Assembly: GCF_037975245.1 (NCBI RefSeq)
Contig: NC_092578.1
Span: forward strand, 19,603,821-19,667,820
Direction: 5' to 3'
DNA: 64,000 nt
Origin: Apostichopus japonicus
Taxonomy: Eukaryota; Echinodermata; Holothuroidea; Aspidochirotida; Stichopodidae
Part shown: in pieces, positions 2-63,500 of the stretch
Position numbering within the stretch: the first letter of the stretch is position 1
Layout of the letters: the number at the start of each line of letters is the position of its first letter
The notes under the pieces: generated by a model
What the model was told of the DNA's origin: nothing
The model's database searches: none
The model's input: only the letters and a program-made list of their open reading frames with translations
Program-made: the position numbers and the translations under genes

Positions 2-3000
2 GCACATCATGTTTCCAAGATTGTTTTCTTTGCTCGTGAAAAGCAAGAACCTACCCCAGAGAATATGGAGATTGTTTCCCTTGGTGTTGACCAGTCTATC
101 ATGTCTGTTTTTCGAGTTTGGGACTACATAGAAACACATCATGGTAATGATTTTGACTGGTACCTGCTTATACCTGATACAGTTTACCTATATGGTGGGG
201 CATTAATGGACTTTGTTGGGCACATGAGTCTCGGCCATGATGTTTACATGGGTATGCCTGTACTGGAAGAAGACAAGGAAATAACATATTGTAAAAAAGA
301 AGCTGGTGAGTACCAAACTATATATGAATATGATTGTGAATTGTTGTCATTCAAAATGGATGCACCGTGTGATTTAATCTCTCCCACATGTTGTCATTGA
401 ATATTAACATTGACCTTGTTGAATGAATACCATGTTCCCAAGGCAATTCAATAGGCATTGTTATATTATAAGATTACAGATAGAGGCCTAGCACTGTACA
501 GTACATACCAAGGTACTTCAAGTAGAAACTAAAGAGAAACATTAACAACAGCCAACTGAACTTCTAGGCTAGGTTTCTGCATTAAATTACCAACATACAA
601 TTTAACTACTGGGCTAGATTCCTCTTCTACTACTGGCTATGTTTCTTTACTACTAGGCTAGGTTCCTGCACGAGCTCACTGGAACTCTAATAGTACCATG
701 TTCTGTGCAATATCCTGCTCCCCTTCCCCACCTTTTTGACTATAAACTGTGTGACGTCAATAATCTTTTCATAGTCAACGTGTAGCATAAAATACAATTA
801 ACAGTTGCCTTCTTGTTGGGATTTTCATTTTCCAGGATACCTATTGTCAAGTAACCTCATGCAGAAAGTTGGTAGCCATTGGACAGAGTGTATGGAGAGA
901 GCATGGAGCAGCCTACCAGGTCTAGAGGTGGCTAGGTGCATCAAGCAATACACAGGGGTCCATTGCTCTAACAGTTTTGAGGTACAGGATAGCACTAACC
1001 CCTGGATCCTTTTTAATGTCATCTAATCAATATCATAATTCTGAATACTCACCTCCAGGTCATGTACTTTGTGTGTGATATGAAATACTTGCAGTTATTA
1101 TTATTTAGTAACTTAAAAGGGACATTCTCATAACACAGTTGATTTATAAAGTGGGCATAGTTCTTACAAACCAGTTCTTGATACAGTAAGTCTAGGTTGA
1201 CTAATTTTAAGTTAATTATTACATAAAAAATTCTAAGTTCAAAATTTAGGAAAATCTGCTGTTTTTCAAGTGATTAAAAAGTAAGAGGAGTTTGCGTAAC
1301 AACATATTAAGGATAGAAGTTGAAATTGTTGTAATTATTCTACCATTAAAAGGATGCTTCTCCTCACAGCAAAGGGACAGCAAAGAGCTCAAGTATTCAA
1401 AGTTTCCTGACACTTTGCCCCGGAAGGAAATCCTATGATTTCAGTCATTTATGTGATTAATTTAGCACACTTCAATTGTACTACTAATGATTGAGTTACT
1501 GTATATAGACAGTGTAATCTCCATTGTACATATATAGCTAGTGTTCTGCCAATTCAGCATAACATGATTTTTCCTGTTACAAATTGTGCCCAATGTCATT
1601 GCATCGACTTATACAGCAAGTCTATAGGCTTGCGAATGCCTTACCATTGATTCATTTAACCAGTAGCACTAGATTGACTGACAATTCAAAACAAAATGCA
1701 AGCAAGCCCTTTCAAATGGAACAAATTCGTTCTCATAATTTTTCACTATTTTATTGGCTTTTGTGTCATTTCCTTCTTATCTAGGGTTCTGTTTACAGAG
1801 CTTACAATTTCCAGGATAAGGCGCTCTCTCCCAGGGACTTTGAAGACAAGAGACTGCAAAATGCACTAGCCATTTACCATGTGATTGACCAGAGGTCCAT
1901 GTATAAACTTCACAAATTCTCTGCTGAGGTGGCCCTGAATCGTACCTACAAGGAAATAAAGAACCTGCAGGCATCAATTGAAGAATCCAGTCAGTATGGA
2001 CCACCAGAGTCCCGTAAGGTTACTTGGCCGACGGGATACCCTCCACCTTTCAACGTTACCACCAGGTTTGAGGTATTTGAATGGGAATATTTTACCATGA
2101 CACATATCTTTGGGACAAGTGATCAGGAACCGAAACTTCCCCTAACAGGGGCAGATAAATTGGATATTGATGAAGTTGTAACCACTTCAATGGGAAGACT
2201 GAATGAAAAGTATGCTGATGCCTTCACTCTGGGCAGGTTGGTCAATGGTTATCGTAGATTTGACCCGACTAGGGGGATGGAATATACGTTGGACCTAGAG
2301 CTGAAAATGACAAGTCAAAAGTTGAAGAAATCTATCCAGAAAAGGGTTCATTTGCTTCGCCCTCTAAACAAAGTAGAAATGATACCTATGCCGTACGTGA
2401 CCGAACAGACCCGGGTCACCCTCATTGTACCCGTTCAAGTTGACAGTCAAGACCAGTTGAAAGTATTTTTGGATTTTTACACCAGAGTTTGTATCGAAGC
2501 TAATGACAAATCCTCTCTCATGATGATATTCATATATTCACCGGCCCAGGCTCAGACGATGGCTTCTGAAGACGTCTTTGGAAAGTTGAAAGGGTTCATC
2601 TCCTACCTGGAGAAGAAACATTCCGAAGCCCAAATGTCCTGGCTTAGCGTCAAAACTACTGTCCCTTCCTTAGTTGCCCTTATGGATGTCATCTCGACAA
2701 AATTTACAGACAACGTTCTGTTCTTGTTAACTAACGTCTTTACAGAACTCTCAGTAGAATTTTTGAATAGAGCGAGAATGAACACCATAAACGAATGGCA
2801 GGTGTTTTTCCCTATACCATTCACCCAGTACGACCCAAACATCATATACAATGATACCCCCGATCCAGGACACATCACCATCATTAAGGGATCGGGGATA
2901 TTTGACAAGTCCCTTTACGAACATGCTAGCTTTTACAGATCGGATTACGTGACAGCCCGTAAACTATGGGATGAAAAGCACCCCGGGGTCGGCACAGATC

Positions 3001-3263
3001 ACATCCAATCCGATCTTGACCTCTTTGAGATGTTTCTTAATGCAAAGGTTCACGTGCTCAGGGCTGTCGATCCCGCACTCAAGCAGAGGTTCAAGGAACG
3101 TTTCTGTCGACCCACCTTACGAGAGGATCGGTACCACCAGTGTCTAGCAAGTCGAGCCGAAGGTTTGGCTTCCAGATCGCAGCTGGCAAAGCTGATATGG
3201 AGTTCAGAGAAAGATCTTGATGTACGAATCAAGACTATTCAAAGAAAGGGGGTTGTACATTGA
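2..3263 (+). CDS. CHPF: Chondroitin polymerizing factor (CHPF/CHPF2-type), 3' part of gene, three exons
   Basis: Coding exons 2-305 (open at the window edge), 836-981 and 1785-3263 (TGA at 3261-3263). GT and AG splice sites are present and phases agree (1, then 0). The product is a Golgi type II membrane protein of the chondroitin synthase family (CHGN domain) that partners chondroitin synthases in chain elongation. The N-terminal half resembles a GT31 beta-3-glycosyltransferase, but the metal-binding acidic triplet of the active synthases is replaced by IPDTVYLYG. In the C-terminal GalNAc-transferase-like half the DVD motif is replaced by FLLTNV, as in vertebrate CHPF. Recognisable family blocks include NGYRRFDPTRGMEYTLDLEL, PMPYVTEQTRV, WQVFFPIPFTQYDP and a Cys-containing C-terminus. 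About 640 residues are visible; the signal anchor and first exons are outside. CHPF and CHPF2 cannot be told apart from this. A synthase is unlikely because both catalytic acidic motifs are missing. Confidence 0.9.
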
Positions 3264-6200
3264 TGGTTTCTCTCGGATATGAGCAAGGTATCCCTTAGTT
3301 TGTGTGTTGTGCTGTGTGGTATGGTATATGTTGTTTCTTAAAAACACTGTGAACGTTAAGAAAAGAGGCTTTCTATCTGGTAAAAAAGTTATCAGGTTTA
3401 CTGGTCAGGGGAAGGAGAATTGATGCAAAATGTCATATTATGTTTAAAGGACACACCAACATAACCATCATCTTTGGCCTACTGTATGTGATAGCTTAGA
3501 TAAACATCATAAAATATCCTAAACAGCTGAGAAAAATTCTTATCCAATTTTGGAAAGGACGGAGATTTAATGTTCCTTCGCACATGAGGTTGAAGACTTC
3601 ATCAAGTCTAATATGACAACATCAAACCACATACGCTTTCTTTATCTGATGTTTTTCTTGATTTATTATTACAAAGTCAATTTTCTGCCATTGAGATGAC
3701 TTCGGCAAATGATGAATAAACAATATTGAGTCTCTTGGCTTCAATTGCAATACTGTTGACATTCTACCTTCGAAAATCTTAATAGCTGGAATGAAAAGCA
3801 AGGAGATAGTAACAGGTTTGGGAACTTAGTGGCACTGTGACATCACAGATTTAACAAAATTGGAGCTACTGGATAATTGATTTTAAACTAAAATACCTCC
3901 CGAATGGAGCAAGATTTCTCTTAGCTGATTTGGAGAGTGGATCGTGATACAGATCTCTGTAATTTATGTATAAGCTAAAGATAATCATTGAGTCTGTGCC
4001 TCCTTTAAATCATGAAGGGTTCGGACATGTTTGAAGGATTAAATTTTTGTGAATTTATCTTAAAAAATGTATTATAAAAGCATACAGTTAATCACAAAAT
4101 AATTCAAAAAGAAAATACAGTAGGTAATACGATATACTGCATTGTTCAACTTGAACTGTTTTGTGAATTAATTGCAAACACATTTTTTGGACGTTTTCTG
4201 TACAATTCTGTATCGTTTCCGAACTCCAATCGTGCTACCATTTAAAAAAATATTTATATTTCAAAACTGTAATACTTTTAAAGAGAACTGCATCATTCCA
4301 TTTATACCACTTTAACTTTTTCTACTTAATTTAATTAACACCTTGAACTGGCTGCTAAACGTTTGATACCCAAAGGCAGCCAGTCTTTCCTATGCATTTT
4401 CAAAAATGATGGAAAGTTTATTAGCATTAACAGAATTAAAATTACGAAAATGCACCATTGCCTCACTTCACCCAGGTGTGTAAATGGGGACGTGCGAGAT
4501 AACTTGTAAATATAGTCGGGTGTGTCGGTCTGTGGCTGCACCCTACGGGAAGTCCCCCAAGGGACACGTTGCCGTGGTGCTCGGTAGTGCCCGTGAGGGT
4601 TTGTTTGAATTGTGTACACTTTGGTGTGTGGGTGTGACAAGTTACCAATGACCTATTTAAAAATTGGATATTTCAGCAATCATTTTATGAAGGAATCATA
4701 ACTAAAATCCATTCCCAGTCTCCTCCCTAACCAAGCACTCCTCTAAAGAAGAATCTGAAAATGATAGCGTCCTTCATTGATCTTTGCTGGAATTTCATAT
4801 TATATTCATGTTTTTTACCCTTTTTTTTACCGTTAACTAAATGAATACAGTAGTTTCTTTACCTACTGTGTCACCAAGCATATTACATTTACACTGAATG
4901 ATAACATATGATGGCATACAGTAGGTTGTCCACTAACAGATAGAAACACATAGTTAATAACTCATGTAAAACTATTTAACTTATGAATATTGAATAGTTC
5001 AGAGATGTTTCAGGTGTAATAATGTTACTTAAAATCAATAGCTTTTAAGCATTGCATTAAATGTTGCTTTCCATTTGTGGAAGTATGCAAACTATATTTT
5101 ATCTATTCCCTAACCCATCCAGTCCAGTATAGTTTTGAATGGTTATCATCACCAGTTAAACATAGAAAAAATGAAAATTGAAAAGAAAATGAAAAAATCA
5201 TAGAATTTTTTACTTTTGTAGGTAATTTATTTTGTAACTTCACAATTGGTGCATCAAAACTGCTTGCTCTGTCTTTCAGCAAACTACACATCAACAAAAC
5301 CCCAATATTGGTTCTAGTAGTAATTTTGGACGACCTCTCCGCAGCTAATTCCTTCACATCAGTCACGTGTATGTCAAGGGGGGGGGGGGTTGTAAACTTC
5401 AAGAGACAGTAGGGACATGTGACTTTGATTTGAATGGGGGGGGGGTTAGGACCAAATAATAACCTCAACACTTTCCAACAAAATGGTTACTCTGTGCATC
5501 TCTTACCACAAAACAACAATAATAGTAATAACAATAATAATAAAGGAAAATGGTAGAATTATCCAAAAGGTGGGTTTTTTATCCATTTTTCAACAATTTT
5601 CTGTTCGTAGAAGGATATACAACATTTTGTTATGAAAACTGTATTTCACCAAATTAAAAGAAATTGAAGCAACTCAACTTTTTGTGATTTAAAGTATTAA
5701 TTCTGTAAAACTGATGTGTGTTCTAGAAACAGTAGTTAACTAATTCGATTTCTTCGCGATTATTGTGCCTTGTATACTTAATACTGATATTTATACTATA
5801 TTTTTAGCCTTCAAACTGTCCAAGGTCGCACAAAATCTGTCTTTTACTTCCTGTTAAAGTTTAATTAATTCTTACTACAACTCTTTTACACTGTGAGTGC
5901 TTAATTGTCGTGTGTGATGATCTTAGTAAATAAATGGTATATAAGAAAACTTTGACTTGGTCTACGTATCTCTTTTTAATTTGATGTAATGCGTATAGCC
6001 CGAGGAGGTGGGCGGGGGCAGATGTGAATTTTACAGGCCCTACGACGAAGGGGGATTGATGTGATGCGGACAGGTCCGACGAATGGGAAGGGGAGATTCA
6101 TGTGATGTGTATACAGGCCGATGAGGGGAAGGGGGTGGGGAGTGTTACATCACATATGTGGGTATGTAATCCTTAATACATTCAGCTCTAGAAAAAAATG

Positions 6201-12945: not shown

Positions 12946-14219
12946 GACCAACCATATGTACACTTTTGCCTGAGAACCAGTTTTTCCAAATAGTTTTTTC
13001 CCATCCATAACCTATTTCAAGATAGTCACCAGCCTAGTCACACATCATGTTCGACCTCATCGCATCTCCTGTGGATCATTGCTTTTATAGGTAATTCTAC
13101 GTAACGGCCCACAATACCCGTCAGCCCCACTTTTCAAGGTATTTGTTCAGAATTTGAATAATAAATTCACTTAAAATCATACCCATAATGTTGCACGAAA
13201 TTTCATCTATGGACAACCAATATAGAAAGCCCCCTCCAACCCCCATCCAAGACCTGTCAAAATTGCACGAGTAGAGGGAAGTATGATGAAGAATGTTGGT
13301 CAGGGAATCTTCGGGAAAACTTCAGACACAGTTAATTTATTGGTGTACAAATATTAAAATCTCTTATAACGGCTTCTATAAACCTTCGATATCATAAAAA
13401 AATACCAAAAAAAAATATGCTCGAGGGGGCGGTCTCCCCCTTCGCCCCCCCCCCCTTGGCTTCGCGCCTGCGGTTAGAAATCTTGTAGGAAACAGGCCAA
13501 ACGGAAACCCAGTGAACCCATATCGATGTGGATCATATATGATTGTACGTACTTACACTCATACACAAGAACTGTAAAGACATTATGATAATAATCACGA
13601 GTGACAACATGCTATACGGTCACAGGTCACAGAAACGAGCACGACGAGTCATTTTGTTGGATGAAGTTTTAGCCACCGCCAAATAGGATTTGGATAAATA
13701 ATCTCACGCATCATTTTCTATTTATAGCCACAAACAAAAAGCCACAAAATATTAGGAGGGATATTAGCTACTATATCCCCCACCTTAAATATTGGGGACA
13801 TGCCCCCCCCCCCCAATGATCTCCGCCCATGAGCGCAAATATGTTTACTTCATTTCAATTTAGTTAATCGGTTTATACACAAATTCAATAAGAAACACAT
13901 GATATTTGTCATAAGATTGTCAAAGATCAACATATTTATTTGATACCATAGAATGTCTGCCCATGCATCAGATCTGAAATACATTAGAATATATACAGAA
14001 ACACATACACCCCAGTAACACCCTTCATGGGAGTCACTTTCAGCCAGTATATAAAGGTTCATCTCCTACTCAAATCAGTCGAGGGACACTGGTCTGAAGA
14101 ACTTCACAGTAATACGAAAGGGAGCGAATCGTGCCAATTACTGCCATAAATTGTTGCGTATTAAGTATATCAATAATACAATTAAATATCAATTATACAT
14201 ATATAAATTAATAAAGATC

Positions 14220-14420
14220 AACACATCAGAAAAATTCCACCTCACAACCGGTTTCGTCCGTTTGGGACTCATCAGGCGAAGGTAGGAATCGAACACCGGA
14301 CCTTTGTGTCACAGATCGAAGTCCGTACCACTCGACCAGAGTGATTTTAGTGGTGTGTGAATGCGTATAAAATGGCTTTGTGCAAGTGTTAATGAGGGCG
14401 TATAACCCTAGTATATATAT
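14220..14420 (-). mobile_element. tRNA-derived SINE-like element carrying a hammerhead ribozyme core
   Basis: On the minus strand a pol III A box TGGTCGAGTGG (14338-14328) is followed at tRNA-like spacing by a B box GTTCGATTCC (14294-14285). The sequence runs straight on into a hammerhead core. tRNA-promoter elements carrying hammerheads are known in other animals (for example Smalpha of schistosomes, and animal retrozymes). The tRNA fold itself is degenerate. Element ends are uncertain. It lies 115-315 nt past the SULT-B stop, in the same orientation. Confidence 0.65.
14248..14299 (-). ncRNA. Hammerhead ribozyme core (type III-like)
   Basis: Read on the minus strand: CTGATGA (14275-14269), stem II GTCC/GGAC (14268-14265 with 14259-14256) around a CAAAC loop, then GAAA (14255-14252). 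Stem III pairs CCGG (14251-14248) with CCGG (14299-14296), followed by U at 14295. All invariant core positions of CUGANGA...GAAA are present. Weak points: the base at the cleavage position (14294) reads G where H is expected, and stem I pairs poorly. This copy may therefore be slow or inactive. Confidence 0.7.
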
Positions 14421-14534: not shown

Positions 14535-20625
<6,091 letters not shown>

Positions 20626-23061: not shown

Positions 23062-26000
23062 TCAAAGTCTAGCTTGGAGGAGTAAACTTCTCATGATTAT
23101 CAAGCTTCGCGACAGGTTCTGGTAAAAGCTCATCGTGTCTGTGCTTGGACAATTCTTGTATGTTGTGACTGCTACACGATAACTGCAAAGAAAATCACAA
23201 GATGATTATCATCAATAGATCATGGTTGGTACACTCAAACACTCAATTGATAGCAACACAATAGAAACAACAATCAAATGGCAATTAAAACAATAAATCA
23301 AATCATATTTAAGAATTGTGATGTGCATGGTTACCCAGGATACTTATAGATTAGTTCCCCTTCCTGCAATTCAAGGAATAAACTTCTCCTCTAAACACTA
23401 TTTAATGTTTACCTTCTCTATCACGGCTGCTTTAATTCATACTTTGAACAGCAAATGACGAATGTTTCTCACAGCTGGCGTATCTCACAAGGTCAAATGG
23501 CTGTCCATGTGGACAGCAAAAGTAAACATGTATTATGCATGACTCTTTATCAGAATATTTTTGACATTCCACTTAGTGGGTGCATTTTATATCAAAGGAA
23601 ATATGAATTCCATTATCACTTCACCTTGTGCCCACAATTACAAAATTAAAGACAATTAGTAACGACCTCCAACAGTATTATTATCGATATCTGGTACTTT
23701 GACATGATATTAATTTCAAAATAAAATAAAACTGTTAGAAAACTGCTTATCCACTAGAGAGCCTGTGTAATAGAATGTGTAAAAGTAAGTTGGCCTGACA
23801 TTTCGATCCTAGCTAGCCTCTGAAGAAGATCCTGCTAGGATCAAAACGTCAGGCCAACTTACTTTTACACATGATATTCATTTAACAGACAAAACAGCAT
23901 ACAGTATTATCGCTGCAGGAAACTCTAACTGCGCACTGAGGAAAAATATGACTTTCATAAAAAATATCCTGCTATCAGGAACATCCCTACCACCACAAAG
24001 ATACAAGATCAAGACTTACTTGTCATTTTCAATACCGTAGAAGCAGCCATAACCATCGTGGCACATGGCAGAAACAGCTCCATGTATTGGAATGTAACCC
24101 ACCAGGCTAGTGGATAGCTTAAAATTGCCTCCTCCACCACTAAACAATATCAACAAGGGAAAGAAAACAAACCAACTGCTCAGTTACTACAACTCCTGAG
24201 TAATAATACTTAGCTCACCATCTGACAAGAACTTCATATAAAGCAAACAAGAAATGGGTTCTGCCATAATTGTGACTTGAACAATGTTAAATGAATACCC
24301 TGTTTCAACATCTATATTCATATGGTTATTTGAGGGAAACTATTTTTGCCAGATAATCCTGTCATTACTGCTGAGAGTAGATCACATTACAACTTCTGTT
24401 ATTTCTACACCACGGCACACATCACAAAGCTAAACTTTCATTACTGCTGAGAGTGGATCATAGTACAACTTCTGTTATGTCTACACCACGGCACACATCA
24501 CAAAGCTTAACTTTCATTACTGCTGAGAGTGGATCACGGTACAACTTCTGTTATGTCTACACCACGGCACACATCACAAAGCTAAACTTTCATTACTGCT
24601 GAGAGTGGATCATGGTACAACTTCTGTTATTTCTACACCACAGCACACATCACAAAGCTAAACCTTTCATTACTGCTGAGAGTGGATCACAGTACAACTT
24701 CTGTTATGTCTACACCACGGCACACATCACAAAGCTAAACTTTCATTACTGCTGAGAGTGGATCATGGTACAACTTCTGTTATTTCTACACCACAGCACA
24801 CATCACAAAGCTAAACCTTTCATTACTGCTGAGAGTGGATCACAGTACAACTTCTGTTATGTCTACACCACGGCACACATCACAAAGCTAAACCTTTCAT
24901 TACTGCTGAGAGTGGATCACAGTACAACTTCTGTTATGTCTACACCACGGCACACATCCCTTAGCTAAACCTTTCATTACTGCTGAGAGTGGACCACAGT
25001 ACAACTTCTGTTATGTCTACACCACGGCACACATCCCTTAGCTAAACCTTTCATTACTGCTGAGAGTGAATCGCAGTACAACTTCTGTTATGTCTACACC
25101 ACGGCACACATCCCTTAGCTAAACCTTTCATTACTGCTGAGAGTGGACCACAGTACAACTTCTGTTATGTCTACACCACGGCACACATCCCTTAGCTAAA
25201 CCTTTCATTACTGCTGAGAGTGAATCACAGTACAACTTCTGTTATGTCTACACCACGGCACACATCCCTTAGCTAAACCTTTCATTACTGCTGAGAGTGA
25301 ATCGCAGTACAACTTCTGTTATGTCTACACCACGGCACACATCCCTTAGCTAAACCTTTCATTACTGCTGAGAGTGAATCGCAGTACAACTTCTGTTATG
25401 TCTACACCACGGCACACATCCCTTAGCTACTGTAAACCTTTCATTACTGCTGAGAGTGAATCGCAGTACAACTTCTGTTATGTCTACACCACGGCACACA
25501 TCCCTTAGCTAAACCTTTCATTACTGCTGAGAGTGGATCACGGTACAACATCTGTTATGTCTACACCACGGCACACATCACAAAGCTAAACCTTTCATTA
25601 CTGCTGAGAGTAGATCACAGTACAACTTCTGTTATGTCTACACCACGGCACACATCCCTTAGCTACTGTAAACCTTTCATTACTGCTGAGAGTGAATCGC
25701 AGTACAACTTCTGTTATGTCTACACCACGGCACACATCCCTTAGCTAAACCTTTCATTACTGCTGAGAGTGAATCGCAGTACAACTTCTGTTATGTCTAC
25801 ACCACGGCACACATCCCTTAGCTAAACCTTTCATTACTGCTGAGAGTGAATCGCAGTACAACTTCTGTTATGTCTACACCACGGCACACATCCCTTAGCT
25901 AAACCTTTCATTACTGCTGAGAGTAGATCACAGTACAACTTCTGTTATGTCTACACCACGGCACACATCCCTTAGCTAAACCTTTCATTACTGCTGAGAG

Positions 26001-29000
26001 TGAATCGCAGTACAACTTCTGTTATGTCTACACCACGGCACACATCCCTTAGCTAAACCTTTCATTACTGCTGAGAGTGAATCGCAGTACAACTTCTGTT
26101 ATGTCTACACCACGGCACACATCCCTTAGCTAAACCTTTCATTACTGCTGAGAGTGAATCGCAGTACAACTTCTGTTATGTCTACACCACGGCACACATC
26201 CCTTAGCTAAACCTTTCATTACTGCTGAGAGTGAATCGCAGTACAACTTCTGTCTACACCACGGCACACATCCCTTAGCTAAACCTTTCATTACTGCTGA
26301 GAGTGAATCGCAGTACAACTTCTGTTATGTCTACACCACGGCACACATCCCTTAGCTAAACCTTTCATTACTGCTGAGAGTGAATCGCAGTACAACTTCA
26401 GTTATGTCTACACCACGGCACACATCCCTTAGCTAAACCTTTCATTACTGCTGAGAGTGAATCGCAGTACAACTTCTGTTATGTCTACACCACGGCACAC
26501 ATCCCTAAGCTAAACCTTTCATTACTGCTGAGAGTGAATCGCAGTACAACTTCTGTTATGTCTACACCACGGCACACATCCCTTAGCTAAACCTTTCATT
26601 ACTGCTGAGAGTGGATCACAGTACAACTTCTGTTATGTCTACACCACGGCACACATCCCTAAGCTAAACCTTTCATTACTGCTGAGAGTGGATCACAGTA
26701 CAACTTCTGTTATGTCTACACCACGGCACACATCCCTAAGCTAAACCTTTCATTACTGCTGAGAGTAGATCACAGTACAACTTCTGTTATGTCTACACCA
26801 CGGCACACATCCCTTAGCTAAACCTTTCATTACTGCTGAGAGTGGATCACGGTACAACATCTGTTATGTCTACACCACGGCACACATCACAAAGCTAAAC
26901 CTTTCATTACTGCTGAGAGTGAATCGCAGTACAACTTCTGTTATGTCTACACCACGGCACACATCCCTTAGCTAAACCTTTCATTACTGCTGAGAGTGGA
27001 CCACAGTACAACTTCTGTTATGTCTACACCACGGCACACATCCCTTAGCTAAACCTTTCATTACTGCTGAGAGTAGATCACAGTACAACTTCTGTTATGT
27101 CTACACCACGGCACACATCCCTTAGCTAAACCTTTCATTACTGCTGAGAGTGGACCACAGTACAACTTCTGTTATGTCTACACCACGGCACACATCCCTT
27201 AGCTAAACCTTTCATTACTGCTGAGAGTGAATCGCAGTACAACTTCTGTTATGTCTACACCACGGCACACATCCCTTAGCTAAACCTTTCATTACTGCTG
27301 AGAGTGGACCACAGTACAACTTCTGTTATGTCTACACCACGGCACACATCCCTTAGCTAAACCTTTCATTACTGCTGAGAGTGAATCGCAGTACAACTTC
27401 TGTTATGTCTACACCACGGCACACATCCCTTAGCTAAACCTTTCATTACTGCTGAGAGTGAATCGCAGTACAACTTCTGTTATGTCTACACCACGGCACA
27501 CATCCCTTAGCTAAACCTTTCATTACTGCTGAGAGTGAATCGCAGTACAACTTCTGTTATGTCTACACCACGGCACACATCCCTTAGCTAAACCTTTCAT
27601 TACTGCTGAGAGTGAATCGCAGTACAACTTCTGTTATGTCTACACCACGGCACACATCCCTAAGCTAAACCTTTCATTACTGCTGAGAGTGAATCGCAGT
27701 ACAACTTCTGTTATGTCTACACCACGGCACACATCCCTAAGCTAAACCTTTCATTACTGCTGAGAGTGAATCGCAGTACAACTTCTGTTATGTCTACACC
27801 ACGGCACACATCCCTTAGCTAAACCTTTCATTACTGCTGAGAGTGAATCGCAGTACAACTTCTGTTATGTCTACACCACGGCACACATCCCTTAGCTAAA
27901 CCTTTCATTACTGCTGAGAGTGAATCGCAGTACAACTTCTGTTATGTCTACACCACGGCACACATCCCTTAGCTAAACCTTTCATTACTGCTGAGAGTAG
28001 ATCACAGTACAACTTCTGTTATGTCTACACCACGGCACACATCCCTTAGCTAAACCTTTCATTACTGCTGAGAGTGAATCGCAGTACAACTTCTGTTATG
28101 TCTACACCACGGCACACATCACAAAGCTAAACCTTTCATTACTGCTGAGAGTGGATCACGGTACAACATCTGTTATGTCTACACCACGGCACACATCCCT
28201 TAGCTAAACCTTTCATTACTGCTGAGAGTGAATCGCAGTACAACTTCTGTTATGTCTACACCACGGCACACATCCCTAAGCTAAACCTTTCATTACTGCT
28301 GAGAGTGAATCGCAGTACAACTTCTGTTATGTCTACACCACGGCACACATCCCTAAGCTAAACCTTTCATTACTGCTGAGAGTGAATCGCAGTACAACTT
28401 CTGTTATGTCTACACCACGGCACACATCCCTTAGCTAAACCTTTCATTACTGCTGAGAGTGAATCGCAGTACAACTTCTGTTATGTCTACACCACGGCAC
28501 ACATCCCTTAGCTAAACCTTTCATTACTGCTGAGAGTGAATCGCAGTACAACTTCTGTTATGTCTACACCACGGCACACATCCCTTAGCTAAACCTTTCA
28601 TTACTGCTGAGAGTGAATCGCAGTACAACTTCTGTTATGTCTACACCACGGCACACATCCCTTAGCTAAACCTTTCATTACTGCTGAGAGTGAATCGCAG
28701 TACAACTTCTGTTATGTCTACACCACGGCACACATCCCTTAGCTAAACCTTTCATTACTGCTGAGAGTGAATCGCAGTACAACTTCTGTTATGTCTACAC
28801 CACGGCACACATCCCTTAGCTAAACCTTTCATTACTGCTGAGAGTGAATCGCAGTACAACTTCTGTTATGTCTACACCACGGCACACATCCCTTAGCTAA
28901 ACCTTTCATTACTGCTGAGAGTGAATCGCAGTACAACTTCTGTTATGTCTACACCACGGCACACATCCCTTAGCTAAACCTTTCATTACTGCTGAGAGTG

Positions 29001-32000
29001 AATCGCAGTACAACTTCTGTTATGTCTACACCACGGCACACATCCCTTAGCTAAACCTTTCATTACTGCTGAGAGTGAATCGCAGTACAACTTCTGTTAT
29101 GTCTACACCACGGCACACATCCCTTAGCTAAACCTTTCATTACTGCTGAGAGTGAATCGCAGTACAACTTCTGTTATGTCTACACCACGGCACACATCCC
29201 TTAGCTAAACCTTTCATTACTGCTGAGAGTGAATCGCAGTACAACTTCTGTTATGTCTACACCACGGCACACATCCCTTAGCTAAACCTTTCATTACTGC
29301 TGAGAGTGAATCGCAGTACAACTTCTGTTATGTCTACACCACGGCACACATCCCTTAGCTAAACCTTTCATTACTGCTGAGAGTGAATCGCAGTACAACT
29401 TCTGTTATGTCTACACCACGGCACACATCCCTTAGCTAAACCTTTCATTACTGCTGAGAGTGAATCGCAGTACAACTTCTGTTATGTCTACACCACGGCA
29501 CACATCCCTTAGCTAAACCTTTCATTACTGCTGAGAGTGAATCGCAGTACAACTTCTGTTATGTCTACACCACGGCACACATCACAAAGCTAAACCTTTC
29601 ATTACTGCTGAGAGTGAATCGCAGTACAACTTCTGTTATGTCTACACCACGGCACACATCCCTTAGCTAAACCTTTCATTACTGCTGAGAGTGAATCGCA
29701 GTACAACTTCTGTTATGTCTACACCACGGCACACATCCCTTAGCTAAACCTTTCATTACTGCTGAGAGTGAATCGCAGTACAACTTCTGTTATGTCTACA
29801 CCACGGCACACATCCCTTAGCTAAACCTTTCATTACTGCTGAGAGTGAATCGCAGTACAACTTCTGTTATGTCTACACCACGGCACACATCCCTTAGCTA
29901 AACCTTTCAAGTACTAATCTTGTTGTTGGCTTGTCTCGGAAACTTAAAAGCTTTTACTGGTATCATTCACATTACAAGTCTGGTGCACTACCATTAACTT
30001 TTATGTTACCATGTGCATTTTAATTTCTTGCTCTGTATGGTAAAGTACAGTTCACTCAGATGATGAGGAAATCAACATAAAATGTAGCTTAATTGCAGGT
30101 TTACCATGAATGCTTCAAACCTCTTAGCATGGATAATAAGCTTGAGGTTCTGTTGTTAGCTTCGCACAAAGTTATCATAGAAAAAAAGTTCTTAGTATTT
30201 GCTAACTGGGGTGCTGAAAGAAGGTGCAGTATGGGGAGAGCGATATGGGGGAGGTAGGCACAAAGTTTGAAGGGCAGTGACACATGTGACTTTGAGGGGA
30301 CATTCCAAAACGTTAACTCAAAACTTTAAAAAAATACAAAGGCCATACATACCACATTCCAGTTTCTTATTTTTTTTTTTCCGACCAGATTCATACAGGG
30401 GTGGAGGGTGGGAGGGGTGTGGAAGGAGCACGTTTAAATGATCAAATGAATTCTCTTTTCACCTCTTTGTGTAGCTTGGATGGGTAAATATAGCTGGTAG
30501 TTCTTCTCCCGATTCCAAAGCTAGAATGTATAAGCCTAGTAGATGTCTGTCAATGCCTCTTCCTTCTCTAGCTTCCTCCATTAGATACAGGTATTTACCA
30601 TGAGCTTCTTTCATTAACGAGTACCGTTCACTTTTCTGTATTTTTTGGAAAGATATTAAACAAATTTAAACACAAGGGTGACCATATGTAAGTCAACATG
30701 AAGTGTGCTAGGTTGTCCTTCACAAAAGTCAACAGTAATGTAACTTTGCACAGCTAGCTTGATTAAATCATGACACTGTAACATTGTATATGTTAGAGAA
30801 AGAGTGAGACTGGGTTCACACACCACTGTAAAAAGGTTGCCAGACCCTAAGAACAGGCATAGCTAAAATTCAGCATAAACAAGAAGATTTTGGTTATAGT
30901 ATTATATAAGTTAGTACATAGTAGCTGATATTTCTACTGTCCACTAACAAACTGAATAAGAGTCTTAGAGAGCAAATATCTGGATTTACTTTCTTGTCAA
31001 GACGATCTGTAACTAATCTATTTTGTCGATCAATATCTTCACTGATGAAAAACCATGACACTACTCTCAATGTCTCTTTCTTACATAGATATGATGCAGA
31101 AACTTACAGTTTTGCTGCTATCTAGCATTGCCTTACACCAATCAACGACCTCTTGTGAAGTCCCTCTCACTGTCTCTGTGCGACCATGATAGAACTGTCT
31201 TGTGGTGGCTGTTTCATAGCAAGGAACACATCTGTTGGGTCATATAAAGCGGATGAAGAATATATATGCAGGTATCATAACTAATTCACAATGCTAAGAG
31301 CACAAACATATTTTTAAAGTATATAGGTAGTGAAGATCTCTCTGTTTGCTTATGGGTTTAGTTTTAATCTTGAACTGCAAGACTTCATCAATATCTTGCT
31401 CAGATTCTGCCAGAATTTCATAAGGAGTCAAAGAAAGGAGAAATGTCCGTAACATCATGCATGCCTTAACGTTTCATAATCTGTTAGCCTTGTAAATTGG
31501 TGAAATAATTCATGAAAAGTGTCTCCAAGAACCACAATGATGTTTCCTTGTTTCAATATAGCAATTGTAACCATTTTGTAGTTAAGGGGTTCTAGATTGA
31601 ATAGTCTTTGATGAGAGCTTCCATTTTATGCAGACATTATTTAGCCCACATCAAAACTTCCCATATTTGCTATTACAGCATGTCATCAAGACTGAAAGAT
31701 GATATGGAGACAATTTTTGCTTTCCTTTGATGAAGTATTTTACAAAAGTGTTTATCAATTTAAACACAACAAAGGCAGCGTATAAAAGACGTTATCTATT
31801 TGAATGACTCAGAAGATTGAGATAAACTTACGTTTTGTACATGGTGTAGTATGTTAACTGTATCGCTAACTGGAAAAATGCATCTGGATGGAACTTCTGG
31901 CTCTTGACAAACTTCTTACCATATCCACCTATGTCACTGCAAATTATGTCAATGTTACTTGCCTGAGGAGGATCGAGAAGGGACAGATATTACAGCAGAG

Positions 32001-48704: not shown

Positions 48705-51700
48705 ATGGATTTTCCACTGCGGTTCTTGACATTGATTGCTGTACTGGTCCATACTTCAGTGACTCAGACTCCAGTAACGACTAGTACCACTCCGATACCA
48801 ACAGAAGTCAATGAATGTGAGTGCACCTCTTTATTCATATTGTCATGATGTTTATTAAAATTATTTGTAAGTCACAATTAAATGAAGAAAAAGATAAGAG
48901 ATAAAATTTCACACTAATTTTGACCTTGAGTCATTCAAATTAGCCTCCCTTAGGCTAAATTAACCCATTGCTGAAGAAGCCCCTGAAGGCGTGAAGAATT
49001 TTGTTGATCTAGAAGAGCCTTTTGGTAATGAAAATGTACCAAAATATTATTTTTGTTTTTGTAAGTAAGCAGTGCCAATATTTTTTCATTTTAGCAGAAG
49101 CATTTGTTGAAAATACAAACAATAATGTGCCATGCATGTTCTTGATAAATTGTTAAAACTGTAGTTAAAAATTTATTCAATTTGTTGAGAACCATTCCAA
49201 TACTGGAATTTGGTAATGAGAAATGCACAGAGGATCCATTTATAACTTTTGCTGGAAAGTAGTTAATTGTTTGCGTAAAATGTTGGCTCCCTCATAAGAG
49301 ATTGCATTGCAATTATTAAAAACAGAATCTGATCAAACTTTGTATTTTTTCCATTTCATTTCCAAACACATTAACTACAGAGCAATATGGCCCAGAGTAA
49401 AGTTTGCTTACAAATTTATGATATTTACGCATAAAGACACGGTGGCTTATGAATCTTGTTATTCTGTAGGGCATTACAAAATGAGGAACTTTATTTGCAA
49501 TTACATGGTCATTACTTGTCTAGCAATTGTCCAGTCATCCTACTGCTCCTACTTTCTAGTCCATTTTGTTAAACTGTTTTTTCCTAACTGTGTTTGTTTG
49601 CTTTGTATAGGCTGGTTCTCAAAATGCAGTGTATTGCTGCACAGTGAAAGTGTGCATATTTCTTATCTTGATTATCAATGCCAACAAATTTGGGAAATTT
49701 GCACCCAATTTATTATTATATTCATTTTTCTTCATTTCATGGATCTGTTTTAAGTCCAGAATGAACATGAATAAAATGTGCCTGCGTTTGTCCTTCCTTT
49801 CCTTCATTTCTCCCACTTTTGATCTCCCTTTTCTACTGTTTCATTTGTTACATTTGTCCATTTTTTCCCTTTTGTAGTTGGGCAATTCCATGGTAACGGA
49901 AGGACATTGGGACTAATTTTCTGACATTTAAACAAGTATATCATGAATATCCCCATTAATTACAACAAATAATTGTCATCATTGACTAGCTATAACTACG
50001 TACTTCAATTTTCACATATTTTTTTTTCCACAAACCCTTCCTATTTTTGAAATATGAATATTAATGAGGTCGGTAACGGAAAGACAGCAAACGGACAAGG
50101 GTTTTCACAGGTCTTGAGTTTATTGTAAAACTCTGTGAATTCTATGGAGTAATATTATTTTAGAGATGAGAAATGTTATCCCAATACTGTTTCCTATACT
50201 GTACCACTTTCCATTCTGAAATTATTGCTTTGGTTTTCTAGAAATATTGTGCTAATTAAAGTTAAATTTGGTAACGGAAGGACGGTAACGGAAGGACAAA
50301 ATGTCCACTCAGTTACAGTGTGCAAAGAAGAGTATATCACAATGTTGACACAATAATATAATTGTTAGAACCAACATTCCAGTGTGAACTATAACAATGT
50401 ATTGACCATCAAAAGCAAAAATATGGAAGTTATTTCTAATTATCAACTAATCACATTATGTTAATTAACTGTAGGTCAATAACTGAAAAAGTGAAACTGA
50501 AAAAGTTGAAGCATCTATCACTATATTCAACTGAATTTATTCTAAAATGATAATTAACTGAGGCTGAAGTCCTACTACTTTAGAAATAATCACCTGCTTA
50601 TTAATGGGAAGTGATTGTATCTAAAAGTACAAACAAACAGTAGTTTTTAACTGTAAATTTGTTTTTTCTACATGAGTATCTAGAAACAATATTTCAGTTA
50701 TCAACTACAGTATCACATGGAGGCAGTTAAACATGGGTTCATTTATTTCATTCCTAAAGCAGAGGTTCCTGATCTTCAATTCTTTGTTAATAATGGGAGC
50801 ATAATTTTAGCATAATTTTGATGTCACACACGTGACCAAAATAACGCAAAAGTTTTCATAAAAAGTAACTGATGTGCCTTATGATGTCCACACTTGATAT
50901 GCAACCGTTCTTGGTGCACACTGTTAGTTCTGCAAAATATCCAGTCAAGTAATTATTCCTACAATGAATTCATAGCCTCTTATTAGTCCTCACACATGTG
51001 ACCGATGATCACGTGTGTGACATTTGTGCATGAAAATGCAGAATGTCACACACGTGACCCAACAATGTCACACACGTGACCCTCCAAATCATGGCAGTAA
51101 AACTGTATTAAAGTAATTCCTATGGAATATCAACATCAGTGCTGTTCTGTGGTCATTACTAGAGTCAACATTTGCACTGAAAATTGCATACGCACAATGA
51201 AAATTCAGAATGTCACACACGTTACCCAACAATGTCACACACGTGACCAGATTTTTTTTACCTTATGTAGTATTATGCTAATTTTAAGAAGTGAAATATT
51301 GAGGTGAAATGTCTTGTAAGAATAGAAACACATTAAGGTAGAAACATGAGAAATTAGGGTTATTCAGCCCTGTTAGAAACTGAGGAATTTGCCAATGTTT
51401 TTTTGAGCAAAATAGCCAGTTTCATTTCACGTCACACACATGACCGACCTTTATATGACCTCTGCCAGCACATGAATGTTCTGATTTTGGCTAAGCAATA
51501 TATGGTTTTGTAAAATAATCCCCTAGTGCATACTTAAGTACTAAAATCAACCTTACTTTCTTTACCTAAAAGTAGTTACTTAGTGGTAAAGTGCAAATCT
51601 CCTCATTTTTCAGTCACACACGTGACCGAGAATGGCTCTACCATGGAATTGCCCCTTACAGTAGTAGATATAAACATCACTCTCAGAATCAACAACTCCC

Positions 51701-54700
51701 ACAGGATGCTGTATACAATATATATATGTATGCATGCAATGATATTTACTTTTAATCATAGGCAAATGACTCAATTATCTGACTGGAAAAACAAAATTGT
51801 CCTTCCGTTACTGTCCTTCCGTTACCAAAATGGTAACGGAAAGACAGGTTTTAATCAATCATAATGAACAAACGAAGAGGACCAGGGTGAAAATAATTAT
51901 TTCATTTTGTTGGCCAATCTAAACTTGCTTTGAAGATGAACTTTCATTTTAATCATGCTGCAACTTTTCCTGAAAAACTAAAAAAAGTTATATTTTCGGT
52001 AACGGAAGGACATTTCAAATGGCAAAAATACCGAAGGGCACTGAAGCGGAACCAATGAGGAAAAGGGGCGAAAATATTATCCATTCAGTTTTCCATGATC
52101 TATACTCTCACATGGTAGTGGCTGATATCATTCATATACTCGCTATCAATAGCAGTGACCAATAGTTTTTATTACCAATCATCCAATTTTCTGTATCAAC
52201 TCATGAATATTCAATTACCCATATATTTCCATTCCAAAATGCATGAAAATTGCATTTCTGAACCTGATTCTGGAAAATATGGACTCTTAGCTTTCATTTG
52301 ACACCAAATTTACTATTGTCACACACTTTTAATTTTTTGGGTATCATGTCCACTTTCTCATGGAATTGCCCAGTTATAAAAGTACAAAAGTTATGCTGTA
52401 AGATATACTGTAAGGCATCATCCCCTACATTTATTTCTAATTTACAATAACAGTTATTCATGCTTCATTAATGTTAGTCTGTGAGCCAGCCGGCCAATCT
52501 GGTCCAGGAGTCAGATGTAACACAACAGGTCTGTGCATCCCATTGGCAGCTATATGTGATAACCATGACAACTGCGGTGATGGGGAGGATGAATTGCAGT
52601 GTCCCGGTAAGTACAGACATATTCAGTTTACATTGATTTCAGTGAAGCTTCTTTATAGTGACAGAAATATTATTAAATATTGATAAAATAAGTACAAAAT
52701 TATTGTTGACCACTTTACATTTTGTATGGTATATATGCAAATAACTCAAAGCAATGTATGCTTTATTGTTTCTGTACATGACTGCATTTATCTTGCATGG
52801 TCTATAAAGGAGGTCATCTTTAGCTGATTTTTTTTTCAGAACAAATGCTTGTATACTATTACTAATTGCTATAATTTCCTATTGAAAAATATACATGCAG
52901 TGGTTGCTAGTATTATTGTATGTTCAATACTGTTCATGTAGGCTGTTGTAGTGTAATATTATGGATTATATTTAATTGATGCTATAACATTCCTTGAAGT
53001 TCCTTAGGTACTATGGATTTTTGGTCTCTGTCTTAATGAGTACAAGAACCCTATATGCTTTTCTGTGAAGTTCAATGATCAAAGTCTGAAAAATTGAAAA
53101 TGAATCACAAAGCCAACTTAGACAACAAGCCCAAGTTGGGCGAGATCCATATTTAACGATTCCCTCCACCTGACACTATACACAGAGTTCTATTGTGTAA
53201 TATTATAGTGTGTAATATGTTGAATTCAAAGGGATATACTTTAGAAAAGTACATTAGTATTCGGTTTTGAGCTTGTACACAGTCCAAAAGTTGCATTAGT
53301 ACTCCCATGGTACTTGATGAGGACAAATAAATAATTCTTACTGCTGGAAAGTCAATACCCATAAAACTGCAGTTTCAAGCTGAACTTGTGAACATGCTTG
53401 AAGATAGAGTCATATTCCAGTACAACCAGACAGTGCATGAGGGAAACTAAATTTATATGATAGTAATATGAGCAGAACATGTATTCTATATAAATGTATA
53501 TACAAATATAAAGATAGATAAATATATCTATACGTATATATATTGATACACATGTATATAGATCTATTTATACCATTAAATCCTGCCTTTGGTCGACATC
53601 TGTTAAAAGTTAACATTTGGTGGACAAAAGTTGTATATATATATCTGTGAAAACATGTGTAATTGAGTTAATGAATGCCAAAGGCACACTTCTATGGGAC
53701 CCCTTTGCCATTCCTTCATCTGTATTTTTTACTACATAGTCGGTTAGAGATATACACTTTTTGGGCCTTGATAGATGTCCACTTAGCGTATTTTATATAA
53801 ATTGTGTATGATAGGGGGTCTTTGTATATATGTCTACATTAAGTCATTTCTAAGGGACAGTATATGTTTACTTAAAACCCTCATTTCGAGTGGACAAACA
53901 TATATCTTCATAAAACTAATGGAAAAGTTGTGGTTGTAAAGAGATTTGACTAATTCTAACCAAGATCTGGACATTAAGGTTAATCATCGACCCTTTGATT
54001 GAATACCTTCTGTTGGACTACTACCAACCGAAATTGAATCACCTCACCACAAATGATGTGCAAATGATGTGCTGAAATTGCATTTAATAGTTTATATCTT
54101 AACATGAATTTGTTAGAAAGACAGAAGCGTCATTCTTCAAACGGAATGTTGCAAATTAATATATGGAAATAGCTGAAAATAAATATAGCAATTAGTAACT
54201 AATATAAATTTATGCTGTATTTTTAAAGGACTACGCACTTGTCCAGGTGTGTTGGAGGAAGTTGTGGTGAACTTGGTCCTTCCTCGAATTTCAAGGGATG
54301 AGGCCACTATATGTTGGACCCATTTTTTAAAAGGATCGTAGAATGTCTGAGACGTAAGATGTTAGGGGAAATAATTTCACTCGTGAGGTCTAGAGGAGCG
54401 AACTTTGTAACTCCTCCTCATCCCTCTGTGAATAATGTACAAAATGGTTTTAAGCAGACTGTTTGCCAATAAAATCATCTGAAATTACATCTTAGCCTGC
54501 TAAGGCAGAAATTTTCCAAAATAAACTTGTAGTGATTCCTGTGCACTCAGTTCCACAAAAAAGTTCTTTCACTAGTAAGTGGTTTATAATTAGTGAAAAA
54601 TAGTCTTCATACGTTGCTTGTTATCAAAATGACAACCACAATAACATGATGTTTGATTAATTTTAGGGAAGGAAATGTGTTTTGGTATTTTCTTTTTATA

Positions 54701-57700: not shown

Positions 57701-60700
57701 TGTTAAAGTTTGTTGTATGTTCTTGTGGAGACCTTGCAAGTGTTTGCCATCAAACACAATCCCATAAAAATACTATATCTATAGGCTAATTTTATTTGAA
57801 ATTTAGGCACAAAGGCATTCCTTGAAGAAATTCCACTCAAAATTGATCATGACAAGTGCAAAGTTCAATAATGCAGCCATGAAATAAAAATTCTTTAAAC
57901 TTGAAGATAGCTAGGTTATAGACAAAACTTTGTGGTACATATGTATGTAAGTATGTATGCATTTCCTCCTGCAAGCAGGAATATGAATAAAAAATAAATA
58001 AATGTATAATTTTTCTCAGCTGGTTCATCAGTTTATATATTTGTATTAAGGTTTATGAGGAACGATAAATATATAGAGTGAAAAAACGTACCTGACATGC
58101 CTATGATAACACTGCTCACCATTTTGTATTTATTGAAAAAATTTACATTCAGCATTTAACATTCAACATTTATTAGCTGCCCACAAAAGTGGCCAAAGGG
58201 TATAGCTATATTTATGTATGGGCTACTGCAGAATCTATACTCATGCAATACCTTACTTGATTGCTGATCATATGAACCCATAACTAGTTTGACTCAAATT
58301 GTTGGCAATATGTACAATGGTAAAGTGCCGATGCCTCAAAGTTTGGAACTTAAACATACCGGCCTAAAATAGTCTGCAATTTATATACAGGATTTCCTTC
58401 ATGCTTAGAAGGAAGTTGTATTGTAAATGGAACATACATTTATTATCAAAAGGTCTGGGTTATGCACATCTTTGCAGATTAGGAAATCCTGTGTGCACTT
58501 CTGACAGTAACCGGAACTTCCTTCACAGAAAAAGTGCAGAACAACTCTCTAGTATAGCCCGGAATGATGAGAAAGGCAACTTTGTCGTAGTGATATCATC
58601 TTTTCATTGTCATAGATGTTACTTCCTTCATTGCAACCCTTAGTAATGACGAGCTATGCTTTAAAAGTTATGTATCTCTTAACACTGCAGTTTATAATCA
58701 GCCTTGAAAGTTAATTGTCAGGACAAAACTTTGGAGAGATATTTTGCAGAAGTCAGTGATCTTAGACAGTGGGGGAGCTAGGGGTATTGGTCAGGAGGGG
58801 CGAGAATGGTCTGCAGGGGCACTTCCGACACTATCTAAGCAGAGCGCCACCACAGGTTGGCGCGTAGCGTACAGAAATTTTTTGAGTAAAGATACTCCCT
58901 TGATCGCCGGAAATGACCCTTTCCGGGCCTGGCTAATTTGCAGATAAACGAAGAATAAATAGGTGTCATCGCCAAATTACACCAACAAAATGTTACAAAT
59001 GTCAATAGGAAGATGAGAGTGCAATAAAAAAGTCAATAATCGCGAATAAGTGACTGTAAGGCCGGACGCTCTGCCACTGACCTTAGAGAATTATTGACCA
59101 TCCATTGCCTATTGATCATCCAAATAATCATCTACAATTCATTAACATGCGGTTGAAAGAAGACCGAAATGAGAAATAAAATCATTGCAAATTTTAGTTA
59201 ATGTGAACTTAAATTTTTTGATTGTTTTATTCGTTACAGGTAAAGACGTTATCATTTGAAGCCTTACATCTCTGTATATGTATTCAACTCTCAGGGTTAA
59301 ATCCTGGGCCAGCTTAACACCCTCTGGTTCCTTATAGGTTCCATATATGCTTCCCACTCCCCTATAAGCTGAGAATTTTCGGGCACCTACTGAAAGAAAA
59401 ATAAATTGCAATGTGTTTTTCAATGGTTAAAAACTGATATTATTATGATCATCGTTATTGTAACAACTTCCCCAAAAGTTATAACCAACATGGAAGGGTT
59501 ATAACACGGCAAATGATTGTATGTAATTGTTATGTGATGTAATAACCTATGGATGCCTATATGATATGCACATTAACATAAAAAAAATTGGTTATATTTT
59601 TCGAGCAAGTCGTTACAGCCCCTCCCAAGTCAAGTTGGGCTCCTATGCAGCTATGCTGACAGATCTTAGGATGAATAAACAAAAGATGGCTGTGGTACAT
59701 GAGACTGGTTAGTTGCAGGCCAATGGCTGCTGTCACAAAATGTTCTGAAAAATTTCCTTTAATTATCCTCTTTTGCTTGGAATTTCAGAGAGTGAAGATT
59801 GTGTTAATAGGAAGAATTTAGCAGACCAGATTGTAGAAGTATGTCCTTTAGACCGGCGTGTGTTAGAAGGTCAACCAGACAATAATCTAAATGACACATG
59901 GATCTTTGAACAACCTGAATTTGATTCCAACAAAACAGAATACATTGTAGAGGTATTATTACATCTTGTTATATATATATTAAAGAAACTTTTAACCTGT
60001 TGTTTCTGGATTTCAGTGCTTTAGAAATGTATTCATTGTTGTTAACATTATTATTATTAATACACAGTGGCTCTGCTTTTGTGTCCATGGTAACATAATT
60101 CCTAATGTTAACTACAAGTACATGCTTCTTCATCATTGTTTCTTAATTTGTGAATATGTATAGTTTGTACAGTTTCTTGTTATTGGAGACGGTGTGTTGA
60201 AATGTCTATACAACTCTTGATAATTTGAATGATCCTATTGGCCAGTAATAGTACATGCTCTGTGTATGCAATGCTGTGTGTTAGACACTTTTTCTTGAAA
60301 CTATATGAATCGATCATTTGTTGCATCCTATTTATAAGGTTAGGTTGCTCCAATGTCAGTTCCAGCTATAGGCAAGCTTGTTTTCACTAATGCTCTGTAT
60401 TCCTGACACTCAGCCAAGGATTCAGAGTTTCTTTCTGTTGGAGAAAATGTAATATTGCATTACTTGATCGTAAATGTGACCTAGCTAAATCTTTTGTCCG
60501 TTGGTCAAGTAAGATTCAGTATGTAGGTCTACTACATGTGGACTTCAGCTGATTAACTTAATGATTCATTTAAAGAAAAAAGCATGTGGAGATGTTAATA
60601 GGAGACATAACTAATCTAAAGTGGTAAATACTTTTTTAAACCACAGCACATTCACCAAACTTTGTCTGTTTTTAGGGGATATATTTTCTTATACATGCAT

Positions 60701-63115: not shown

Positions 63116-63500
63116 CATAGGCGTAGGCGCCCAATTTGATGGGGGGGGGGGGGCTGTAAAGGCTTGCCCGAAAAATATAACCAACATTTTTCGTGCGTCA
63201 ACATGCTAATGTGCATATAGGCATGGATCGGTTATTGCATTGCATGCCAAGAACATACAATCATTTGCCGTGTTATTACCTTTCCATATTGGTTAGAATT
63301 ATTGGGGAAGTCGTTACAATAATAATGATGATAATAATATAAGTTTAACCATTGTAAAACACATTGCAAATTATTCTTCTTTCAGTAGGTGCCCGAAAAA
63401 TTCCCATCATATTGCCCGAATTTTCACAAAAAAATTTTGGTTGGGGGACTGCAGCCCCCCAGCCCCCCCCCCCCCCCCCCCCCCGCCTCCTACGCCTATG
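63116..63500 (+). mobile_element. Short DNA element with inverted ends and long G/C runs
   Basis: The left end CATAGGCGTAGG (63116-63127) is mirrored by CCTACGCCTATG (63489-63500). A 14-base G run lies just inside the left end and a C run of over 20 bases inside the right, so the ends can pair further. It contains TGCCCGAAAAATATAACC near the left and AATTCCCATCATATTGCCCG near the right. No target duplication was found. It lies downstream of the last visible exon, presumably in an intron. Confidence 0.65.

Follow-up and report, generated by a model that had tools for sequence, protein, structure and literature searches.

What is a hammerhead ribozyme core, set against a pair of tRNA-type promoter boxes, doing behind a sulfotransferase gene of the sea cucumber Apostichopus japonicus? 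The window in which it lies is the whole 64,000-nucleotide stretch of contig NC_092578.1 that was analysed. An initial annotation, made from the letters alone, had described it as a weakened copy of a tRNA-promoted retroelement which might cut the mRNA of the preceding gene, SULT-B. In the present work we asked how the ribozyme would fold, whether the boxes belong to it, how many relatives it has and what could have moved them.

The window copy and its neighbourhood

The hammerhead core and the A and B boxes were found to adjoin each other on the minus strand, from 14338 down to 14252, as had been described, and CTGATGA, a 4-bp stem II and GAAA do follow one another at 14275-14252 (Table 1). 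Each arrangement occurs once in the window. The combined A and B box pattern turned up in one of 60 dinucleotide shuffles (mean 0.017) and the pattern of CTGANGA, 4-bp stem II and GAAA in two of 60; the boxes, CTGATGA, stem II and GAAA in the window are beyond chance. A covariance-model match, which the initial annotation had looked to for support, is present, namely to RF02275 (HH9; E 8.4e-4 over the whole window), and falls below the gathering score of 52 bits, a level which nothing in the Rfam scan of the window reached. Another copy of the family, L025, scored 40.0 bits with the same model, again under 52, and since both scores are below gathering neither sequence is classed as HH9.

Aligned with the unit of L025, the window copy (locus L016) extends over 214 nt at 86% identity (BLAST). 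Unit positions are given here as u numbers, u1 being the base directly after the predicted cleavage site. Judged from the alignment, the window copy is a single, 5'-truncated copy of less than one 341-nt unit, and its B box reads TGTTCGATTCC where the family form is GGTTCGATTCC. The exon pieces of SULT-B match PF00685 (sulfotransferase), and the distances from its stop codon (14537-14535) that had been given for the ribozyme proved about right. A 101-codon frame spanning the copy has no Pfam match. The best matches for target-site duplications around it are AT-repeat stretches and are unconvincing. The paralogous SULT exon at 6848-6744 was also compared for a 3' flank in common or an empty site, an idea that was rejected, as the best match past the exon is 19 nt long.

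Several other features of the window were recorded. It holds several sulfotransferase exons and, at 1785-3263 (+), an open reading frame of the chondroitin N-acetylgalactosaminyltransferase type (PF05679, E 8.1e-132). A satellite with a 77-bp unit (about 72 copies, 97% matches) occupies 24354-29909, with a GC skew of about -0.28 at 24001-28000. Two 33-nt inverted repeats with a doubled 14-mer (50267-50299 and 51797-51829, 97% identical, about 1.56 kb apart) look like the ends of a non-autonomous DNA transposon, and a 133-nt inverted repeat pair is found at 59431-59563 and 63214-63346 (84% alike, 3650 nt apart).

Table 1. Features of the window copy and of the adjoining end of SULT-B (window coordinates)
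Feature	Position	Strand	Remark
SULT-B last coding exon	14535..14645	-	stop TGA 14537-14535
Retrozyme-type unit copy (L016)	14199..14412	-	u175 to u341, then u1 to u50
A box TGGTCGAGTGG	14328..14338	-	A-box pattern in 64/72 aligned copies
B box TGTTCGATTCC	14285..14295	-	GGTTCRANNCC in 51/72 aligned copies
Rfam RF02275 (HH9) covariance-model match	14225..14292	-	31.0 bits, below gathering
Stem I 5' strand	14276..14285	-	last pair is the final base of the B box
Core strand CUGAUGA (C3-A9; DNA CTGATGA)	14269..14275	-	
Stem II hairpin GUCC-CAAAC-GGAC	14256..14268	-	
GAAA	14252..14255	-	
GAAACCGGU	14247..14255	-	core GAA and palindrome ACCGGU (predicted loop-less stem III between two copies)
Predicted cleavage site	14245..14246	-	between U17 (14246) and G1.1 (14245)
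Stem I 3' strand GUGAGGUGG	14237..14245	-	
TTTTT, possible pol III terminator	14230..14234	-	just past stem I
AATAAA	13935..13940	-	closest canonical poly(A) signal downstream of the window copy

Topology and predicted fold of the ribozyme

The initial annotation had paired a 4-bp stem III back to a strand overlapping the B box, and had noted a G at the cleavage position and a weak stem I. We rejected this type III topology: in the standard numbering of hammerhead core positions it places G at position 17, and with a hairpin of -0.1 kcal/mol its stem I is in effect absent. Both apparent defects disappear when the window copy is read as type I. Position 17 is then a U, directly after ACCGGU, stem I has nine pairs with one bulged U, stem II has four pairs and all core positions are correct; CUGANGA, GAAA, the A15.1-U16.1 pair, a position 17 other than G and stems I to III are all present. 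According to this model the hammerhead is of type I, with stem I open and stem III formed by the loop-less palindrome ACCGGU. A single ACCGGU is unable to close on itself and would therefore pair between two copies, which is the only way in which the stem III of the window copy would form.

The minimum free energy (MFE) fold of the window monomer is not a hammerhead, and that of two window copies folded together is a double hammerhead. Under a single relaxed rule, applied to real and shuffled sequences alike, a double hammerhead was called in one of 3000 arm-shuffled controls and in two of 2000 in which the palindrome was retained. A stricter rule passed 0 of 2000 shuffles and failed on the real sequence too, because A14 pairs with U17 in its fold; with A14 and U17 forced to stay unpaired, the window dimer gave two separate hairpins. 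L025, which has C17, cofolds into a double hammerhead in which neither A14 nor C17 is paired and a 6-pair stem I is followed by an internal loop. The energy gained on dimerisation was discarded as evidence, being ordinary (at least equalled by 1354 of 2000 shuffles). In the dimer fold the bases of the B box pair within an extended stem I, and it is in this form that the proposed sharing of bases between promoter and ribozyme strand holds.

Conservation of the fold was followed in a 72-row alignment, taken from L016-L075, whose rows nearly cover u234-u34. Position 17 is C in 66 copies, T in five and G in one; a G comes next, and the U17 of the window copy would fit CpG decay of C17. All 11 core letters are kept in 50 of the 72 copies, 48 of which also have U16.1 and A, C or U at position 17. 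The helices are 97.4% paired, compared with at most 49.1% in slid controls (stem II 97.6% and the stem III palindrome 97.2% of cells). Covariation is thin, with double changes at two of 13 pairs; two positions between the boxes that change together, u274/u282, were excluded from it because both changes resemble CpG decay. Self-cleavage of two paired ribozymes is predicted to occur after GUC, and we agree with the initial annotation that the window copy is somewhat weakened.

Could this copy nevertheless have been domesticated to cut the 3' UTR of SULT-B and so regulate the gene? It is in the sense orientation and begins 122 nt after the stop, and the AATAAA at 13940 would place it within a longer SULT-B 3' UTR. 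Such a role is highly improbable, as the ribozyme is a lone copy in need of a partner, has U17 and an altered B box, and an ATTAAA already overlaps the SULT-B stop codon. The most that a single dimer-type ribozyme with U17 might do is to cut in trans together with a second transcript, and we found no support for the suggestion that self-cleavage acts on the SULT-B mRNA.

A family of tandem 341-bp units with internal boxes

The genome of A. japonicus (671.6 Mb, 35 contigs) was searched for relatives. The window query gave at least 44 matches, with 40 of 980 candidates scored. Strict hammerhead cores number 303 (155 + 148) and exact A-B heads 237; the reversed form of either pattern was not found once. 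The multicopy mobile element proposed at the outset, on the condition that other genomic copies exist, is borne out by these numbers. A chance resemblance, for which the sub-gathering Rfam score is the one argument, is refuted by the same 303 and 237 exact matches against 0 and 0 reversed, and we give it practically no credence.

From this genome with its 303 strict cores we read a subset of 90 loci (L016-L105), namely 30 selected for their similarity to the window query, 30 for that to the L025 query, and the first 30 in the list of matches to the hammerhead pattern. Removal of alignments shorter than 100 bp and of near-duplicates left 81 distinct copies. The family unit measures 341 bp between successive cleavage sites and is repeated in tandem, with a GC content of 0.416 and 0.419 in copies on C10 and C9. 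Arrays comprise one to about three units, the longest run seen being 1004 bp, and 28 of the 81 copies reach 400 bp or more. The cleavage junction is crossed in 75 of the 81, which would fit a circular or an uncut multimeric RNA as template. The longest frame of the unit has 85 codons, and a 150-codon frame in copy L066 has no Pfam match. The family thus shows what characterizes metazoan non-LTR retrozymes: a type I hammerhead, tandem units (here of 341 bp), low GC and no protein-coding region. At one locus (L020:1729-1807 and 1886-1964, +) two pieces 157 bp apart consist of u310-u50 only, without the A/B head, and may represent another arrangement of the family.

IMG/VR and GTDB contigs were also searched by pattern and gave 8, 5 and 2 stretches, none of them a relative when the printed context was inspected by eye. 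Some of the IMG/VR contigs were of interest in their own right. In L004 (7375-7500, +) a hammerhead-like motif follows tRNA-Trp within an array of 25 tRNA genes, and in L005 (about 4756-4804, -), L003 (7949) and L007 (1718) such a motif lies 3' of a sequence resembling a B box or T arm. ARAGORN found no tRNA in the last three, and none of the four has a hammerhead family match at gathering.

Are the boxes a part of the element or a chance neighbour? Among the 30 loci for which the hammerhead pattern was the sole criterion of choice, both boxes (at most two mismatches) are present in 24, spaced 38-43 nt apart in 21 and 16-23 nt in three; after removal of near-duplicates the count is 18 of 23, and shuffled upstream sequence contained both boxes in 0 of 2000 cases. 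Over 72 alignments from L016-L075, every one chosen by similarity, divergence is 0.032 in boxes and ribozyme compared with 0.066 in the rest of the unit, despite several CpG in the former. Equally low values were reached by eight of 340 rotations for boxes and ribozyme together, by 22 of 340 for the boxes and by 17 of 340 for the ribozyme, each taken alone, and none of 17 shared variants falls within boxes or ribozyme. As judged from this conservation, the A and B boxes are part of the retrozyme-type unit, and we infer that the internal pair is a promoter of the pol III type. A run of TTTT or longer occurs near the 3' side of the ribozyme in 67 of the 72 copies. A pol III transcript would stop at the TTTTT right after the ribozyme, when about 125 nt long and short of the rest of the unit, so that full-length units may not be driven by the boxes.

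The boxes stand at tRNA spacing, 43 nt from start to start, and this raises the question of whether the family is a classical tRNA-derived SINE with a hammerhead, moved by a LINE in the manner of the schistosome Sm-alpha, which the available portions of PMC2770079 and PMC4918200 describe as a tRNA-Gln SINE with a hammerhead. A recognisable tRNA fold, as expected of such an element, was not found: Rfam gave no tRNA match in the window, the head or L025, and ARAGORN no tRNA in the window head or L025 at default or 85% thresholds, one appearing only when these were lowered to 50% for the window head and 75% for L025. Nor does the 5' end of the element consist of a tRNA part; the boxes sit inside the tandem 341-nt unit, which has no fixed 5' end, and the 5' ends of the copies are scattered over the unit. 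Preferred internal 3' ends and head-to-head copies, both described below, would moreover be unexpected for a LINE. We therefore consider a SINE of this kind unlikely.

Integration ends and the putative driving enzyme

The 3' ends of the 81 copies are far from evenly placed. They lie at u40-54 in 35 copies, at u70-90 in 24 and elsewhere in 22. The second class is spread over u72-87 and is not a single site, the outermost common end being 87 and the inner one about 50. Behind none of the 35 ends of the first class does the sequence of the unit pick up again in the next 200 nt. In 57 of the 81 copies a tract of (TA)4 or more lies in the 60 nt beyond the 3' end, compared with 159 of 5000 60-mers drawn at random from the flanks; such a tract stands before the 5' end in 27 of the 81 copies. 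Among 70 distinct loci (duplicates removed), 19 contain head-to-head copies with the 3' ends outward, none contains tail-to-tail copies and 51 are without inversion. As a pattern, with 22 of the 81 ends fitting neither class, the two internal 3' ends, the signs of extension on both strands and the AT-rich target are those of Penelope-type integration. In the literature covered, mostly other than subscription papers, we found no retrozyme for which ends of this kind are described.

Penelope-like elements are reported to carry minimal hammerheads, reportedly in the work of Cervera in 2014 and Lunse in 2017. For the Penelope of Anolis, two neighbouring internal sites serve for the start of reverse transcription in vitro, and initiation usually falls in an AC-rich stem loop that lies 111-118 bp past the beginning of the ORF (PMC11167929). 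Its ribozyme cuts 26 bp into the ORF, which by subtraction gives a distance of 85-92 nt from cut to start, and an optional tail of 30-40 bp separates the two start sites. Both strands are cut and extended, the targets being AT-rich; the ribozyme is dispensable for insertion in vitro and cuts only when the protein is present (PMC11167929). In A. japonicus itself, GAAACGTC lies 81-83 nt before (TA)n in all four Penelope-like copies read (L106-L109), which are near-identical relatives of one family, three of them chosen by a pattern requiring (TA)n; no CTGATGA is present in the stretch preceding GAAAC. This tail pattern with its obligatory (TA)n was counted by hand at 28 distinct places (75 raw matches). 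The 3' parts of the retrozyme and of the Penelope-like copies show a weak likeness, scored equally high by 12 of 500 shuffles.

A Penelope-like remnant was also observed at L097:140-1003 (+), where a GIY-YIG piece recognised by Pfam follows a piece without Pfam match that we take, by its motif, to be RT-like. The Penelope-like 3' end and a retrozyme 3' end face one TA-rich tract there from opposite sides. L098 is a near-duplicate of this locus.

Is it possible that the copies are merely solo pseudo-LTR fragments of an autonomous Penelope-like element and have no independent existence? The integration signature is similar, the hammerhead-like GAAACGTC is similarly placed, and minimal hammerheads occur in Penelope pseudo-LTRs according to the part of PMC7761336 available. 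The tandem unit, however, closes on itself at 341 nt and contains no RT and GIY-YIG frame, its longest being the 85 codons mentioned above. Furthermore, among the 31 longest frames listed for the 90 loci, Penelope-like pieces were recognised only in L097 and L098, in the orientation opposite to the retrozyme. We regard this origin as quite improbable; by its sequence the retrozyme-type family would be at most a client of Penelope, not a member.

Our preferred explanation, in which we have good though not full confidence, is that the family is a non-autonomous retrozyme-type retroelement with A and B boxes and a type I hammerhead, moved by a Penelope-like enzyme; comparison with the Anolis system suggests that it is probably a Penelope-like element that mobilises it. 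We hypothesize the following cycle. The unit would be ordered as A and B boxes, minimal type I hammerhead and a 3' segment that holds the start points of reverse transcription. Units may be transcribed, at least partly, by RNA polymerase III from the internal boxes, and ribozymes on tandem or separate RNAs would join by ACCGGU and, in the predicted fold, cut after GUC. The monomers would then be ligated to circles, or multimers would persist, and either could account for the copies that cross the cleavage junction. A Penelope-like reverse transcriptase and GIY-YIG endonuclease, the putative enzyme, would cut AT-rich (TA)n DNA, and reverse transcription would begin at internal positions of the RNA, some 50 or 70-90 nt past the cleavage site, on both strands. 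Such an internal start on both strands would give rise to the preferred 3' ends, the tandem copies, the ragged 5' ends and the head-to-head pairs. Perhaps the window copy landed in this way in the AT-rich DNA 122 nt behind SULT-B, where it now appears to be decaying.

How does the family compare with known systems? Metazoan non-LTR retrozymes, in the accessible part of the description by Cervera and de la Pena 2020 (PMC7229834), likewise have a type I hammerhead, tandem repeats of about 300 bp, a GC content below 45% and dimers to multimers, and are non-autonomous without a protein-coding region. The present family differs in the conserved A and B boxes that adjoin the ribozyme, in its loop-less stem III and in having its Penelope-like ends mapped. 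The 2020 review (PMC7761336), in the portion available, states that retrozymes seem to be promoterless and that their repeats show no motif naming the driver; the A and B boxes now offer a candidate promoter where that text saw none. The Sm-alpha element is SINE-like, multicopy and combines a tRNA-related segment with a type I hammerhead (PMC2770079, PMC8490949 and PMC4918200, as far as the accessible text goes). Since tRNA and hammerhead are already joined in schistosomes, according to the same portions of PMC4918200 and PMC2770079, the combination alone is not new. By these partial descriptions, Sm-alpha is set apart from the present family, in which the tRNA-like head is degenerate and the strand of the B box doubles as stem I. 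The hammerheads of newt and axolotl satellites also have a weak stem III and work better as dimers; in the section of PMC7229834 available their stem III is one pair with a palindromic tetraloop, whereas here it is a 6-nt palindrome without a loop.

Penelope-like elements (PMC11167929) share with our family the minimal dimer-type hammerhead, the tandem copies, the AT-rich target, the signs of extension on both strands and two preferred 3' ends, both internal and separated by tens of nt. They differ from our family, which lacks an ORF with a known domain and has tRNA-like boxes and a unit of only 341 nt. That Penelope-like elements drive retrozymes was suggested in 2020, on the grounds that the two co-occur, have hammerheads in common and form tandem copies, as the available part of PMC7229834 has it. 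The genomic ends carry the pattern that in vitro work on a Penelope-like protein subsequently measured (PMC11167929), and this makes the 2020 proposal directly testable: the end pattern in a genome suggests which enzyme is the machinery that moves animal retrozymes. It may be, and we put this forward tentatively, as something slightly short of likely, that the family is to Penelope-like elements what SINEs are to LINEs, a pol III-promoted hammerhead retrozyme in which one strand serves both the tRNA-like head and the ribozyme and in which the copies, placed at (TA)n, reflect internal initiation of the Penelope type on circles or multimers of RNA. If so, it would be the first known retrozyme family with both a built-in promoter and an integration signature that names its driver.
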